A stretch of 64,000 nt of DNA from assembly GCA_947497265.1 (NCBI GenBank), contig CANMFP010000009.1:1-64000 (forward strand), given 5' to 3'. Position 1 is the stretch's first letter; every line of letters starts with the position of its first letter. Shown one piece after another: positions 10,095 through 53,039 of the stretch. The notes below the pieces were generated by a model, which was not told the origin of the DNA, ran no database searches, and saw nothing but the letters and a program-made list of their open reading frames with translations. A program made the translations under genes and the position numbers. This DNA comes from an uncultured Isoptericola sp. (GTDB taxonomy: Bacteria; Actinomycetota; Actinomycetes; Actinomycetales; Cellulomonadaceae).

Positions 10095-10823
10095 ATGGGC
10101 GTCCCCAGCGCCGGCGCGCCGCAGTGGTTCCTCTCGGCGTTCGTCCGCACCTGCCGGGGGGCGGGCGCCACGGAGCCCGAGGAATCGATCCGTGCGGTGG
10201 GCGAAGAGCTCATCGAACGGTGGTCCGGGCCTGGCCGCCACTTCCACAACCTGCGCCATCTCGCCGCCGTCCTGCACCGGGTCGACGAGCTTGCTCACGA
10301 GACCCACGAGCCCGACCTCGTCCGCCTCGCCGCCTGGTACCACGGCGCCGTCTTCGACGCGGACCGCAAGGTCGCGTACGCGACCCGCGGCGGGGAGCAG
10401 ACCACCCTCAGCGCCGAGCTGGCGCGCACGCAGCTCGTCCAGCTCGGCGTGCGCGTGGAGTCGGCGGACCGCGTCGGGGAGCTCGTGGACACGCTCGCCC
10501 GGCACAAGGCCGCACCCGGCGACTTCGACTCCGCGGTGCTCAACGACGCCGACCTGGGCATGCTCGCCGCCGAGCCCCAGCGGTACAAGGAGTACGTCGC
10601 CGCGATCCGCGCGGAGTACGCCCACATCCCGCTGTCGGACTACCTCGACGCCCGGATCAAGGTCCTGACCAAGCTGCTGGGCCGCCCGAAGCTCTACGTG
10701 AGCCCGCTCGGGGCGACCTGGGAGGAGCCCGCGCGGCAGAACCTCGACGCCGAGCTGCACCGGCTCGTCAAGGAGCGCCGCAAGCTCGGCCAGGAGGCGA
10801 CGGCGGGCCCGGCCCGCCAGTAG
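10095..10823 (+). CDS. HD-superfamily metal-dependent phosphohydrolase
   Basis: 242 residues from ATG 10095 (a TTG start 9 bases upstream is also open). The HD signature is HFHNLRHLAAVL, then DLVRLAAWYHGAVFD, with a later catalytic Asp in VLNDADLGML. This matches the predicted HD phosphohydrolases of the COG4339 type, whose substrate is unknown. It is probably cytosolic and stands alone. The coding region ends in TAG, whose final G is also the first base of the tandem array at 10823. Confidence 0.8.
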   Translation: MGVPSAGAPQWFLSAFVRTCRGAGATEPEESIRAVGEELIERWSGPGRHFHNLRHLAAVLHRVDELAHETHEPDLVRLAAWYHGAVFDADRKVAYATRGGEQTTLSAELARTQLVQLGVRVESADRVGELVDTLARHKAAPGDFDSAVLNDADLGMLAAEPQRYKEYVAAIRAEYAHIPLSDYLDARIKVLTKLLGRPKLYVSPLGATWEEPARQNLDAELHRLVKERRKLGQEATAGPARQ

Positions 10824-10922
10824 CCGAGGTAGTAGCGCTCGCGCCGAGGTAGTACGGCGCACGCCGAGGTAGTAGCGCGAGTGCCGAGGTAGTTGCTCGC
10901 CCGGCGAGGTAGTTCGTCGTCC
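10823..10922 (+). repeat. Stop-anchored 20-bp tandem array, 5 units
   Basis: Five units of exactly 20 bp start at 10823, 10843, 10863, 10883 and 10903. The core is GCCGAGGTAGTA in the first three; units 4 and 5 decay to GTAGTT. About nine variable bases follow each core. The array begins on the last base of the HD gene's stop codon and points along that gene. The first unit is identical, base for base, to a unit at 25995 in the largest array. Confidence 0.9.
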
Positions 10923-24535: not shown

Positions 24536-25813
24536 ATGGAACAGCTGCAGATCACCTCGGCGACGCCGAACTCGGCGCTGCTCGACCTGCCCTGGCGGCA
24601 GCCCCTCGCCGAGTGGCCGGCCGACGTGCTGGCCGCCCTGCCCCGCGGCATCTCCCGGCACGTGGTGCGGTTCGTGCGCCTCGACGGCCGCGTGCTCGCG
24701 ATCAAGGAGATCAGCGAGTCGATCGCGTTCCGCGAGTACGAGATGCTGCGCCAGCTGCGCAAGCTCGAGGTGCCCGCCGTGAAGCCGGTCGGCGTCGTCA
24801 CGGGCCGCCGGTCCGACACGGGCGAACCTCTCGAGGCCGCCCTCGTGACCGAGCACCTGGCGTTCTCGCTGCCATACCGTTCCGTGTTCAGCCAGGCCCT
24901 GCGCGACGAGACCGCGAACCGGCTGATCGACGCCCTCGCGGTGCTCCTCGTGCGACTGCACCTGACCGGGTTCTTCTGGGGCGACGTGTCGTTGTCCAAC
25001 ACGCTGTTCCGGCGCGACGCGGAACAGTTCGCGGCGTACCTCGTCGACGCCGAGACGGGAGCCCTGCACCGCGAGCTCACCCGGGGGCAGCGGGAGTACG
25101 ACCTCGACCTCGCGCGGACCAACATCATCGGCGAGCTGATGGACCTCGCCGCGGGCGAGCTGCTCGACGAGGAGGTCGACGAGATCGCCATCGGCGACTC
25201 GCTGGTCGAGCGCTACACCGAGCTGTGGCAGGCGCTCACCGGCGTCGAGGCCTTCCACGCCGACGAGCGCTGGCGGGTCGCCGCCCGCATCGAGAGGCTC
25301 AACGAGCTCGGCTTCGACGTGGGCGAGCTGTCGATCACCACGGACATCGGCGGCACCACGGTGCAGATCCAGCCCCAGGTGGTGGATGCGGGGCACCACT
25401 CGCGGCGGCTGCTCAAGCTCACCGGCCTGGACGTTCAGGACAACCAGGCTCGCCGGCTGCTCAACGACCTCGACTCCTACCAGGCGGCGACCGAGCGGCA
25501 GGACGACGACGAGCAGCTCGTGGCACACGACTGGCTGCAGAACGTCTTCCGGCCGACCATCCGTGCGGTGCCCCGCGAGCTGCGACGCAAGCTCGAGCCC
25601 GCGCAGCTGTACCACGAGATCCTCGACCACCGGTGGTACATCTCCGAGCAGGCGCAGCGCGACGTGCCGATGCCCGAGACGGTCGCGTCGTACGTCGAGA
25701 ACGTGCTCCAGCACCGCCCCGACGAGAAGGCCATCCTCGGGCTCGCCCCCGGAGAGACGCCCGAGGACGGGCCCGAGTCGGACTACTTCCACTACGCCTC
25801 GTCGGACGGCTGA
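24536..25813 (+). CDS. DUF4032 protein with kinase-like fold
   Basis: 425 residues. The N-terminal half resembles lipopolysaccharide-kinase/aminoglycoside-phosphotransferase-like enzymes: FVRLDGRVLAIKEI has the Lys position, FFWGDVSLSNTLF the Asp-x4-Asn catalytic-loop spacing, and YLVDAETG the metal-binding Asp. The C-terminal half (from about residue 230) is the actinobacterial DUF4032 domain of unknown function. Substrate unknown; probably cytosolic. The TGA is followed one base later by the largest CCGAGGTAGTA array. It is convergent with rlmB. Confidence 0.82.
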   Translation: MEQLQITSATPNSALLDLPWRQPLAEWPADVLAALPRGISRHVVRFVRLDGRVLAIKEISESIAFREYEMLRQLRKLEVPAVKPVGVVTGRRSDTGEPLEAALVTEHLAFSLPYRSVFSQALRDETANRLIDALAVLLVRLHLTGFFWGDVSLSNTLFRRDAEQFAAYLVDAETGALHRELTRGQREYDLDLARTNIIGELMDLAAGELLDEEVDEIAIGDSLVERYTELWQALTGVEAFHADERWRVAARIERLNELGFDVGELSITTDIGGTTVQIQPQVVDAGHHSRRLLKLTGLDVQDNQARRLLNDLDSYQAATERQDDDEQLVAHDWLQNVFRPTIRAVPRELRRKLEPAQLYHEILDHRWYISEQAQRDVPMPETVASYVENVLQHRPDEKAILGLAPGETPEDGPESDYFHYASSDG

Positions 25814-25814
25814 C

Positions 25815-26054
25815 GCCGAGGTAGTAGCACGGCCGCCGAGGTAGTACGGACCTTGCCGAGGTAGTACCGGGTTTCGCGAGGTAGTAGGGCTGGGGCCGAG
25901 GTAGTAGCGCTTCCGGCGAGGTAGTCGGGCTTGCGGCGAGGTAGTCGGGCCTCCACCGACGTAGTACCGCCGTCGCCGAGGTAGTACCGGTTCGGCCGAG
26001 GTAGTAGCGCTCGCGCCGAGGTAGTGCCCGACGGCGCGAGGTAGCGCCCGGGCG
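25815..26054 (+). repeat. Stop-anchored 20-bp tandem array, 12 units
   Basis: Twelve units start every 20 bp exactly from 25815 to 26035. Bases 2-12 of each unit follow CCGAGGTAGTA, with GGCGAGGTAGT and CGCGAGGTAGT variants and decay in the last two units. The remaining eight or nine bases are variable and mostly GC. The array starts one base after the TGA of the DUF4032 gene and runs in its direction. It faces the minus-strand array at 26168-26247 across a hairpin. No gene is seen in 25814-26248. Confidence 0.95.
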
Positions 26055-26065
26055 CAAACGCTCAA

Positions 26066-26159
26066 GCCGGGTGTCGGGTGCCGTGCACGGTCGTCAATCC
26101 CGAAGTGGAGGGCGCCCAGCGCCCGTGAACGCGACCGTGCACGGCGCCCGACACCCGGC
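26066..26159. terminator. 29-bp stem hairpin between facing arrays
   Basis: Arms 26066-26094 and 26131-26159 pair over 29 bp with two wobble positions, around a 36-base centre that itself contains a short GGGCGCC-type helix. It lies midway between the convergent DUF4032 and rlmB genes, flanked by the two tandem arrays. It is the likely bidirectional terminator of the junction. Confidence 0.8.
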
Positions 26160-26167
26160 GGAACCCG

Positions 26168-26247
26168 ACCGGGCCAACTACCTCGTCACGCGACCCACTA
26201 CCTCGGCGCGCGTCCCACTACCTCGCGCAATCCGGTACTACCTCGGC
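26168..26247 (-). repeat. Stop-anchored 20-bp tandem array, 4 units
   Basis: On the minus strand, four 20-bp units begin one base after the rlmB TGA, with exactly the same junction (TGA-C-GCCGAGGTAGTA) as the DUF4032 array. Cores: GCCGAGGTAGTA, CGCGAGGTAGTG, GCCGAGGTAGTG, GACGAGGTAGTT, decaying away from the gene. The orientation follows rlmB transcription. Confidence 0.92.
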
Positions 26248-26248
26248 G

Positions 26249-27241
26249 TCAGGCGGTGGCCGCGGCCCGGGCCTGCGCCACCTCGTACAGCGTGATCCCC
26301 GCGGCCACGCCGGCGTTGAGCGACTCCACCGACGACGCGATGGGGATCGACGCCACCGCGTCGCAGGTCTCGCGGACCAGGCGCGAGAGCCCCTTGCCCT
26401 CGGAGCCGACCACGATGACGAGCGGGTCCGTCGCGAAGGCCAGGTCCCGGATCTCGGTGTCGCCGCCGGCGTCGAGCCCGACGACGAACAGGCCCGCCTT
26501 CTTCAGGTCGGTCAGCGTCCGCGCCAGGTTGGTCTCCTTCGCGACCGGCACGCGGGCCGCGGCCCCGGCCGAGACCTTCCAGGCCGACGCCGTGACGGAG
26601 GCCGAGCGCCGGGAGGGCACCACCACGCCGTGCGCGCCGAACGCGCCCGCCGACCGCAGCACGGCCCCGAGGTTGCGCGGGTCGGTGACCGAGTCGAGCG
26701 CCACGATGAGCGGCGGCTCCCCGGCGTCGGCGGCGGCATCGAGCAGGTCCTCGACGTCCTTGTACTCGTACGGCGGCACCTCGAGCGCCACGCCCTGGTG
26801 CACGGAACCCTCGGTGAGCTGGTCCAGCGCCCCGCGCGACGACTCGAGCAGCCGCGCCCCCCGCATCGAGGCGAGCTCGATGATCTCGCGGGTGCGGTCG
26901 TCGTGGTCGATGCGCTCGGCGATGTGCACGGCCGTGACGGGAGCCTGCGTGCGCAGCGCCTCGAGCACGGCGTTGCGGCCGGCCACCACCTCCGCGCCAC
27001 CGGTCGCCTTGCGCGTGCCGCGGGAGACGCCCTTGCGTGCGCCCTGCGCCTTCTGCGACTCCTGCCGCTTCTCCGCGGCGACCTTCTTCTTGTGCGCCGG
27101 GTGGTAGGTGCGGTCCTCGGCCCGCGGCGTCGGCCCCTTGCCCTGGAGCGCCTTGCGGCTGTGGCCGCCGGTACCGACCTGTGCGCCCTTCTTGGTGCTG
27201 CCCTTGCGCTTCGCGCCGGGACGCTGCGAGTTGCCCGCCAT
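26249..27241 (-). CDS. rlmB: 23S rRNA (guanosine-2'-O-)-methyltransferase RlmB
   Basis: 330 residues. A basic, Lys/Gly-rich N-terminal extension of about 90 residues precedes the substrate-binding domain and the SPOUT (TrmH) methyltransferase domain. SPOUT motifs: motif 1 DPRNLGAVLRSAGAFGAHG, motif 2 IVVGSEGKGLSRL, motif 3 PIASSVESLNAGVAAGI. It is expected to methylate the peptidyl-transferase-loop guanosine (G2251 in E. coli numbering) with SAM. The start overlaps the cysS stop (ATGA), a common actinobacterial pair. Confidence 0.93.
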   Translation of the reverse strand: MAGNSQRPGAKRKGSTKKGAQVGTGGHSRKALQGKGPTPRAEDRTYHPAHKKKVAAEKRQESQKAQGARKGVSRGTRKATGGAEVVAGRNAVLEALRTQAPVTAVHIAERIDHDDRTREIIELASMRGARLLESSRGALDQLTEGSVHQGVALEVPPYEYKDVEDLLDAAADAGEPPLIVALDSVTDPRNLGAVLRSAGAFGAHGVVVPSRRSASVTASAWKVSAGAAARVPVAKETNLARTLTDLKKAGLFVVGLDAGGDTEIRDLAFATDPLVIVVGSEGKGLSRLVRETCDAVASIPIASSVESLNAGVAAGITLYEVAQARAAATA

Positions 27242-33771: not shown

Positions 33772-33774
33772 CCC

Positions 33775-33826
33775 CCGAGGTAGTAGCGGCGCCGAGGTAG
33801 TAGCGGCGCCGTCGAGGTAGTAGGAA
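33775..33826 (+). repeat. Stop-anchored array, 3 units
   Basis: Cores CCGAGGTAGTA at 33776 and 33792 and TCGAGGTAGTA at 33812, i.e. spacings of 16 and 20 bp. It starts four bases after the lipoprotein TGA and follows that gene's direction, ending at the terminator palindrome at 33829. Confidence 0.88.
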
Positions 33827-33883: not shown

Positions 33884-33912
33884 TACTGCCTCGGCAGGCG
33901 CGGTACTACCCC
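33884..33912 (-). repeat. Degenerate stop-anchored array, 2 units
   Basis: On the minus strand, GGGGTAGTA (ending at plus 33904) and CCGAGGCAGTA (ending at 33884) are spaced by 20 bp and begin about four bases after the pstB TGA. The cores are weaker than elsewhere but spacing, orientation and position fit the family. Confidence 0.65.
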
Positions 33913-33916
33913 GCGG

Positions 33917-42336: not shown

Positions 42337-42383
42337 CCACCTCTGCCGGGGCGGTACTACCTCGGCGGGGTGCGCTACCTCGC
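42337..42383 (-). repeat. Stop-anchored array at mshA end, 3 units
   Basis: Read on the minus strand: GCGAGGTAGCG, then CCGAGGTAGTA, then AGAGGTGGTGA, with spacings of 18 and 20 bp. The first unit's TAG is the stop codon of mshA, whose last codons are GCG AGG. The array runs away from the gene in its own direction. Confidence 0.82.
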
Positions 42384-53013: not shown

Positions 53014-53039
53014 TACTACCTCGGGGCGGTACTACCTCG
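53014..53039 (-). repeat. Stop-anchored array between nadB and nadC, 2 units
   Basis: On the minus strand CGAGGTAGTA occurs twice (plus 53030-53039 and 53014-53023), 16 bp apart. The TAG of the first unit is the nadB stop codon (codons GCG AGG TAG, as in mshA). The second unit ends one base from the nadC stop, so the whole convergent gap is made of the element. Confidence 0.85.

Follow-up and report, generated by a model that had tools for sequence, protein, structure and literature searches.

Tandem arrays with a fixed step and species-specific core words at gene ends in Isoptericola and related actinomycetes

In the genome of an uncultured Isoptericola sp. (G000, 3.77 Mb), gene ends carry tandem arrays of a short core repeated at a step that is usually 20 bp. 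Most arrays follow a stop codon in sense orientation, and sister species possess arrays of the same architecture built from other core words, forming species-specific dialects. Near relatives differ greatly in the number of arrays that they carry, and blocks of array units and hairpin have been copied between gene ends. These arrays are tentatively interpreted as BIME-like 3'-end elements, the phased units of which would serve as sites for a putative dialect-specific DNA-binding protein. Based on sequence comparison, we favour this reading ahead of an RNA-level element, and the latter ahead of a neutral mobile repeat.

The most extensive arrangement in the window (the whole stretch of DNA that was analysed, 64 kb in length) occupies the junction of two convergent genes at 25813-26249. 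The upstream gene, on the plus strand, encodes a Kdo/WaaP-like and DUF4032 protein (24536..25813; PF13224, PF06293), and the convergent gene, on the minus strand, an SpoU-family RNA methyltransferase (26249..27241; PF00588, PF08032); the name rlmB for the latter is that of the original prediction. Behind the DUF4032 gene lies a plus-strand array of 12 units (25815..26045) with the core CGAGGTAGT and a period of 20, its first core located 3 nt past the TGA. Its cores start at 25817, 25837 and so forth to 26037, giving 11 steps of exactly 20, and 10 of the 12 are exact, the exceptions being unit 8 (CGACGTAGT) and unit 12 (CGAGGTAGC). The facing minus-strand array of four units (26177..26247) has the same core and period, and its first core likewise lies 3 nt past the TGA of the SpoU-type gene; all four cores (26177-26185, 26197-26205, 26217-26225, and 26237-26245) are exact. 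The original prediction of 12 plus-strand and four minus-strand units of 20-bp period at the convergent stops is thus borne out by the coordinates, as is the identical junction claimed for the two stops, both of which read TGA-C-GCCGAGGTAGTA. The hairpin expected between the arrays is present as well, since 26060-26170 folds at -82.3 kcal/mol (z -8.5). The core was put at about 11 bp, a figure that stands only in part: the core that holds genome-wide is the 9-bp CGAGGTAGT, the next A occurring in only 55% of cases in G000.

Five smaller arrays were claimed elsewhere in the window, with approximately 31 units in all, and five are found, every one at a gene end, with about 30 units counted. On the plus strand, a five-unit array (10823..10913) follows a TAG stop and precedes a short inverted repeat, and a three-unit array (33774..33821) with steps of 17 and 20 follows a TGA stop and is itself followed by a GC-rich hairpin. 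The latter is faced by two degenerate minus-strand units (33885..33915) that follow the stop codon of a gene for an ABC-transporter ATPase, which we take to be PstB-like from its family and neighbours, its profile match being only ABC_tran. The other two arrays, both on the minus strand, consist of two units each: one with a step of 18 (42356..42382), in which the TAG of the first core doubles as the stop of a glycosyltransferase gene, and one with a 16-bp step (53015..53039), in which it terminates the gene of an FAD-binding protein, near the stop of a QRPTase gene. With up to one mismatch, CGAGGTAGT has 62 matches in the window, part of them coding background, against a mean of 9.8 (largest 17) in shuffled sequence. 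Throughout G000, tandem pairs number 21+14 vs. 0 for the reversed pattern, and single cores 186 vs. 23. The raw single-core count overstates the element, because most of the single copies sampled belong to the coding background: 20 stretches of contig C1 contain 26 single copies, of which 10 are intergenic and 16 intragenic. All of the intragenic copies are antisense, the word being formed there by the codons GAC-TAC-CTC, and the coding background is similar in species without this dialect.

Placement relative to genes was classified for 142 non-redundant arrays from eight locus sets of several species, with one mismatch allowed per core and genes called by a home-made gene caller trained on the 64-kb window alone. 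A contig scan gave at least 111 matching stretches, of which 51 were considered, namely those of Isoptericola, Krasilnikoviella, Cellulosimicrobium, and actinomycete metagenome-assembled genomes (MAGs), the other 60 belonging to other taxa; five MAG loci are excluded from the placement count. Most of the classified loci were retrieved by word match, apart from 400-kb samples of G136 and of I. halotolerans (G141), which contain 10 and 7 arrays, respectively, and none with the reversed core. Sense orientation behind a stop codon accounts for 99 of the 142 arrays, while 27 lie antisense in the 3' region of the opposite gene, 18 of these facing a partner; the remainder are found in divergent regions (nine), at locus edges (five), and within genes (two). 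In the sense arrays, the first core lies at a median of +5 nt from the stop, with 83 of 99 within -48..+30 nt, and in 34 the TAG of unit 1, 2 or 3 doubles as the stop codon. Downstream of 60 sense arrays from five sets, the neighbouring gene is convergent in 34 cases and codirectional in 25, with one locus edge; in 20 of the 25 codirectional cases, the next gene is at least 85 nt away. The view that the repeats form a gene-end-specific and orientation-biased family therefore holds, with 99 of 142 arrays in sense orientation and none of the reversed pattern in G000. Arrays did not prove equally frequent inside genes (2 of 142), nor did they lack an orientation bias (99 sense vs. 27 antisense).

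The step is far more constant than the sequence that it spans. A step of 20 was measured in 78 of 80 cases for I. halotolerans, 55 of 56 for K. flava, and 28 of 28 for I. sp. QY 916. For G000 the figure is 31 of 40, with a few steps counted twice because two loci overlap. In Cellulosimicrobium the step is 21 (25 of 29), and in the actinomycete MAGs it is 19 in five of eight cases. Core identity amounts to 0.90-0.98, a figure flattered by the picking of cores by near-match. In contrast, spacers of adjacent units are hardly more alike than spacers of different arrays in G000 (0.44 vs. 0.45), I. halotolerans (0.51 vs. 0.45), K. flava (0.55 vs. 0.49), and G136 (0.54 vs. 0.48), with a larger difference in I. 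sp. QY 916 (0.65 vs. 0.52); per-lineage patterning of spacers is weak. Spacers of facing arrays are somewhat more alike than those of unrelated arrays, with a best match of 0.79 vs. 0.64 in K. flava and a smaller excess in the other sets. The original prediction of an exact step despite variable spacers is thereby supported, and a step that is held while spacers diverge fits phased binding. The proposed decay of cores with distance from the gene fared less well. Among 25 arrays of at least four units, mean core mismatches counted from the stop side rise to 0.6-0.8 from unit 6 onward, as proposed, from 0.08-0.24 in units 2-5, but the first unit is also poor (0.56), and the last unit counted from the far side has 0.72. 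Since both array ends are poor, decay away from the gene is inseparable from an end effect at these numbers.

Sister species carry the same array architecture with other, largely mutually exclusive cores (CGAGTCAGCGC, CGAGGTAGCGC, CGAGGTAGGCAA, and CGAGATAGAGA), and further cores are found in other genera (CGAGTGGAGCG and CGAGTGCGGGGG). The dialects are most readily compared at the DUF4032 junction, where inspection by eye of 17 assessable genomes of the genus (G144 being excluded at a contig edge) revealed facing arrays in 11 genomes, with steps close to 20 (22 in G145) and six words: CGAGGTAGT in G000 and G141, GTAGGCAA in G134 and G139, CGAGTCAGCGC in G136 and G142, CGAGGTAGCGC in G148, G149, and G150, CGGGTCAGG in G146, and CGAGATAGAGAACCC in G145. 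By eye, a single hairpin occupies this junction in G143 and G147, and no array was seen there in G135, G137, G138, or G140. The sequence CGAG is retained in most words, with exceptions such as CGGGTCAGG. Genome-wide, tandem pairs of CGAGGTAGT occur in five of 18 genus genomes and in 22 of 221 family genomes, many with just one or two (control, one match). Pairs of CGAGTCAGCGC or CGAGGTAGCGC, the latter word being taken from the DUF4032 junctions of G148-G150, occur in seven of the 18 (G136, 73+100; G142, 86+62; G148, 63+44; G149, 65+103; G150, 150+124; G138, 2+12; G141, 4+0), and the reversed-pattern control gave 0 in all 18. GGCAA words are present in G134 among the matches listed, CGAGATAGAGA was found in a 200-kb sample of G143, and both G141 and G145 contain more than one word. 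In 13 of 221 genomes, CGAGTGSNGSG pairs were found, clearly so in G003 (7), G009 (16), G039 (17), and G090 (21); the other nine have one to three pairs each, no more than the reversed control (1-4 in 15 genomes). A generic CGAG-N-CGAG-N-CGAG scan of the 221 genomes was uninformative, as most genomes gave roughly two forward matches per control match whether they have known arrays or not. A tree of 47 genomes was based on DUF4032, its class 'none/unknown' comprising genomes without arrays as well as untested ones. A single branch sets the GTAGCGC word apart (support 92/85), and another does so for the TCAGCGC word (100/99), with the dialects of G139, G143, G146, G148-G150, G003, and G090 taken from one junction or a few loci. 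On the same tree, GTAGT requires four changes and GGCAA two, G145 being labelled GTAGT though its DUF4032 junction has another word. At one further locus (L315, G199), GCTGGTCGAGTTGCCCGCGCAGCGGGCGTATCGAGACC-type repeats and CGCACTCG units intermingle in the gap of a convergent gene pair.

Presence of the arrays is uneven too. Pairs of the CGAGGTAGT dialect number 142 in G141, 33 in G000, and 0 in G140, which branch support (87/66) makes the probable sister of the other two. G140 lacks arrays at both the DUF4032 and the PstB-like junction, and the leading words in 200 kb sampled from it include no array word. Over the genus, G134, G136, G137, G139, G141, G142, G144, G146, and G148-G150 are rich in arrays, whereas G135, G140, and G147 have next to none or none of this type. 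At the PstB-like junction, compared in 16 of 18 loci (the matches in G138 and G149 are paralogues and were left out, and the gene end of G145 looks unreliable), arrays are found in three of 16 species: G000, G141, and G134, the last with its own word. These arrays are bordered by the stops on one side and, on the other, by a hairpin that can also be seen by eye in most species without arrays. Copying between loci is evident from the junctions with a central hairpin. The hairpin and approximately three units on its left are common to L052, L072, L091, and L254 of I. halotolerans and to the window and L002 of G000; on its right, approximately two units are common to L052, L072, and L091 and partly to L254 and the window, and L002 is without an array. 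A further G000 locus, L209, has a shortened hairpin among array units. Since hairpin and flanking units recur together, array-hairpin blocks have been copied between gene ends, at four loci in I. halotolerans and three in G000. The interpretation in the original prediction is in part supported; dialects, copied blocks, high turnover, and the separate nature of the hairpin were missed by it.

In the window, the central hairpin (26065..26163) is approximately 97 bp long and has an asymmetric internal loop (5' CCCGAAGTGGAG / 3' CGTGAACG) between covarying stems. The pattern CCCGAAGTGG...GTGAACGCG occurs in every one of the 18 genus genomes, at 1 to 28 copies each, and in a further 13 genomes of the family, in one of which (G020) the match is unlike the hairpin, and its reversed control in none of 221 genomes. 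In an alignment of 12 of 16 instances, from which near duplicates were dropped and in which some 3' ends were trimmed, both sides have changed in at least one sequence at 21 of 33 predicted pairs; the loop is constant by construction, because loop words located the instances. One copy (L231, 18574-18663) has an altered loop, and at L179 and L186 the hairpin occurs without arrays. Most surroundings inspected place hairpin copies at convergent gene ends. Judged from its sequence, the central hairpin is a separate, structure-conserved element, distinct from the arrays, and a candidate structured RNA or cruciform family.

Other extragenic structures were observed in the same genomes. A second type of central hairpin, CGCGAGAGCAGAGGGAGCGCAGCGACCGATTCATTCGAGCG, lies between facing arrays, with a 41-bp piece identical in another species (L149-L151, G148-G150; L240:7976-8016, G136). 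Species-specific long hairpins mark gene ends in G147 (TGTGGGTACGAAGATGGCGTGG and its reverse; L173, L174, L177, and L159) and in G143 (GTGAGCGGGCGTTTGGCCCTGTT; L199 and L200). Long poly-C/poly-G runs and N stretches in G143 (L194 and L198-L200), several of them beside gene-end hairpins, are probably assembly artefacts at strong palindromes. At 1-198 of the window, a tandem repeat with a 90-bp unit (2.2 copies matching at 99%) contains GGGTGGGGGCCGAGG-ACGAGG-ACCCGCCCG, and a similar-looking sequence at the PstB-like junction of G147 (L334) suggests another shared extragenic repeat.

The claim that the repeat family is unrecognised is consistent with the Rfam and literature comparisons. Within 25700-26400, Rfam 15 gave no match above the gathering score, only two sub-threshold microRNA matches (E 0.09 and 0.13), and no terminator-like site (GC hairpin with T run) was found; a published description of such arrays was not found in open PMC papers, so that no match to a known annotated element emerged from either source. 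REP/BIME elements with a RAYT were considered, as the arrays are extragenic, dispersed, and grouped in inverted and tandem fashion. The domain of the Y1 (HUH) tyrosine transposase, PF01797 (Y1_Tnp), had no match at E <= 0.001 in the 18 genus genomes but matched in 5 of 14 control genomes, and a unit in the form of an imperfect palindrome with a GTAG-like head is lacking in four of six sets, with GTAG absent from CGAGTCAGCGC. CRISPR arrays, characterised by repeats of 24-48 bp, spacers, and cas genes, were likewise rejected, given a unit of approximately 20 bp and the spread over numerous loci in each genome, most of them gene ends.

It is proposed that the arrays are non-coding elements of transcription-unit 3' ends, in which each unit of approximately 20 bp would be one recognition site, made up of a 9-11-bp core, usually CGAG and a variable word specific to the species, and a spacer of which the length, not the sequence, would matter. 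The most likely reader, a putative sequence-specific DNA-binding protein, would occupy one site after another at intervals of about two turns of the helix. Arrays would expand and contract by tandem duplication, and some would spread as array-hairpin blocks to other gene ends. With the specificity of the protein fixed per lineage, the word may be replaced between sister species and old arrays lost. Bound arrays would probably act at the end of the transcription unit, as a boundary, in 3'-end formation, or in protection of the mRNA 3' end. Whereas the anatomy, orientation bias, fixed step, dialects, uneven presence, and copied blocks are observed, we infer the protein itself, its binding to DNA rather than RNA, the mode of array growth, and any influence on 3' ends. 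The simplest account of a conserved core next to a spacer that is free in sequence but locked in length is a row of binding sites kept in register; with a step of 19-21 bp amounting to about two turns of the helix, protein on DNA is favoured. Dialects and the very uneven presence among near relatives, as in G141, G000, and G140, suggest a trans-acting partner with lineage-specific specificity. Placement at gene ends, genome-wide dialects, and copied blocks also count in favour, as does the lack of RNA structure in the first seven units of the window array, which fold like shuffles (z 0.53). Against this reading, no candidate protein was found, 27 of the 142 arrays are antisense and nine lie in divergent regions, and some adjacent units are plain duplicates, so that part of the period is inherited.

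The same observations must be set against an RNA-level element, which we consider somewhat unlikely. Here, a sense 3' UTR with repeated CGAGGUAGU sites (in the G000 species) would be read by an RNA-binding protein, or by a small RNA that pairs with it, and the stability of the 3' end or termination would be controlled in this way. The strong sense bias and the location between stop codon and hairpin suit such a role as well as they suit DNA binding, and the distance to the next codirectional gene agrees with transcription-unit ends. Whole arrays of at least three units fold better than spacer-permuted ones in four of six sets (z -2.7, -4.0, -4.4, and -4.4), which speaks for RNA, with z of -1.4 in I. 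halotolerans and -0.2 in G000; the one facing pair tested, in K. flava (L060), forms a long hairpin (z -11.9). However, single-stranded RNA offers no obvious reason for a rigid step of 19-21, the folded part of the window array is unstructured, and single units fold no better than permuted ones in four of six sets (z -0.5 to 0.4), with z -1.9 in G136 and I. sp. QY 916 (z -3.8) being an exception. Folding of facing arrays also bears on whether they are the two arms of bidirectional intrinsic terminators and only incidentally repetitive. Tight tips are common, with a gap of 8 in all 11 facing pairs among those listed for G039 and G090, and L060 is a further example; yet arrays also stand alone (10823-10913), the hairpin of the PstB-like junction is visible by eye in most species whether flanked by arrays or not, and a terminator would not need one genome-wide word, all of which makes this explanation quite improbable.

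Mobility without host function is another explanation, and an unlikely one. The arrays would then be selfish or neutral dispersed repeats, non-autonomous and moved by a putative mobiliser, that survive only at gene ends and conserve the core only because the mobiliser needs it. Copied array-hairpin blocks, the uneven presence of arrays at the PstB-like junction, and the recurrence of the GTAGT dialect on the tree agree with this, and array ends that are more degenerate than the middles are what neutral tandem turnover predicts, at the expense of the DNA-binding reading. Retention of the step despite diverged spacers argues against it, as does the finding that, outside the copied blocks, spacers are on average not common to different loci; the known REP mobiliser, a Y1 transposase, was found in none of the 18 genomes. 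DNA uptake sequences, as in Neisseriaceae, would account for dialects around a constant part, which the arrays display, and for inverted pairs at gene ends. This candidate was rejected as highly improbable, since samples of six species showed no clear coding enrichment of the own dialect: CGAGGTAGT occurs 10 times in 340 kb of coding DNA in G141 vs. six times in 340 kb in G136 and 5-7 times in approximately 172 kb each in four other species, and CGAGTCAGCGC twice in G136 vs. 0 in the five others. The word 'tandem', moreover, is absent from the main text of PMC3630211.

The preferred DNA-binding reading can be carried one step further, if more speculatively. The arrays may constitute a genome-wide, species-specific address code at transcription-unit ends, a system extending across the family in which a fast-evolving binding protein (or guide RNA) and the phased arrays co-evolve, each species rewriting the word at dozens to approximately 100 gene ends, as extrapolated from the 400-kb samples. 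A fixed step, a free spacer, and a word replaced genome-wide are the sign of a sequence-reading partner, and the search for this partner is directly testable in close relatives whose arrays run from many (G141) through few (G000) to none (G140). Should it be a mobiliser, the arrays would represent a REP-like system without the RAYT enzyme; should it be a 3'-end factor, they would represent a novel type of transcription-unit boundary, one that comes in dialects. To our knowledge, 3' ends in high-GC actinobacteria are poorly understood.

Two known systems share the layout of repeated sites. Plasmid iterons are direct repeats of approximately 20 bp, helically phased and with plasmid-specific words; the arrays resemble them in repeat length, phasing, and specific words, and differ in being dispersed at chromosomal gene ends instead of forming an origin. 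Sal boxes behind mammalian rDNA are tandem terminator-protein sites bound by TTF-I, and thus polar, repeated sites behind a transcribed region like the arrays, which are bacterial, occupy many loci rather than one, come in dialects, and have a protein that is putative. The uptake dialects of Neisseriaceae (PMC3630211) likewise have one main word per species with a constant and a variable part, and inverted pairs near terminators. Uptake sequences number 2245 and 3269 copies in two genomes according to PMC3630211, whereas the arrays have far fewer copies, no clear coding enrichment, and a tandem arrangement with a 20-bp step. A further likeness is to REP/BIME elements, which, according to PMC2817692 and PMC3733652, are extragenic, present in many copies per genome, grouped in inverted and tandem fashion, divided into species-specific sequence classes, and copied as composites. 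In contrast to REP/BIME, the arrays described here have non-palindromic single units in four of six sets and no PF01797 match in 18 genomes, and their unit is a site of approximately 20 bp with a free spacer and a fixed step.
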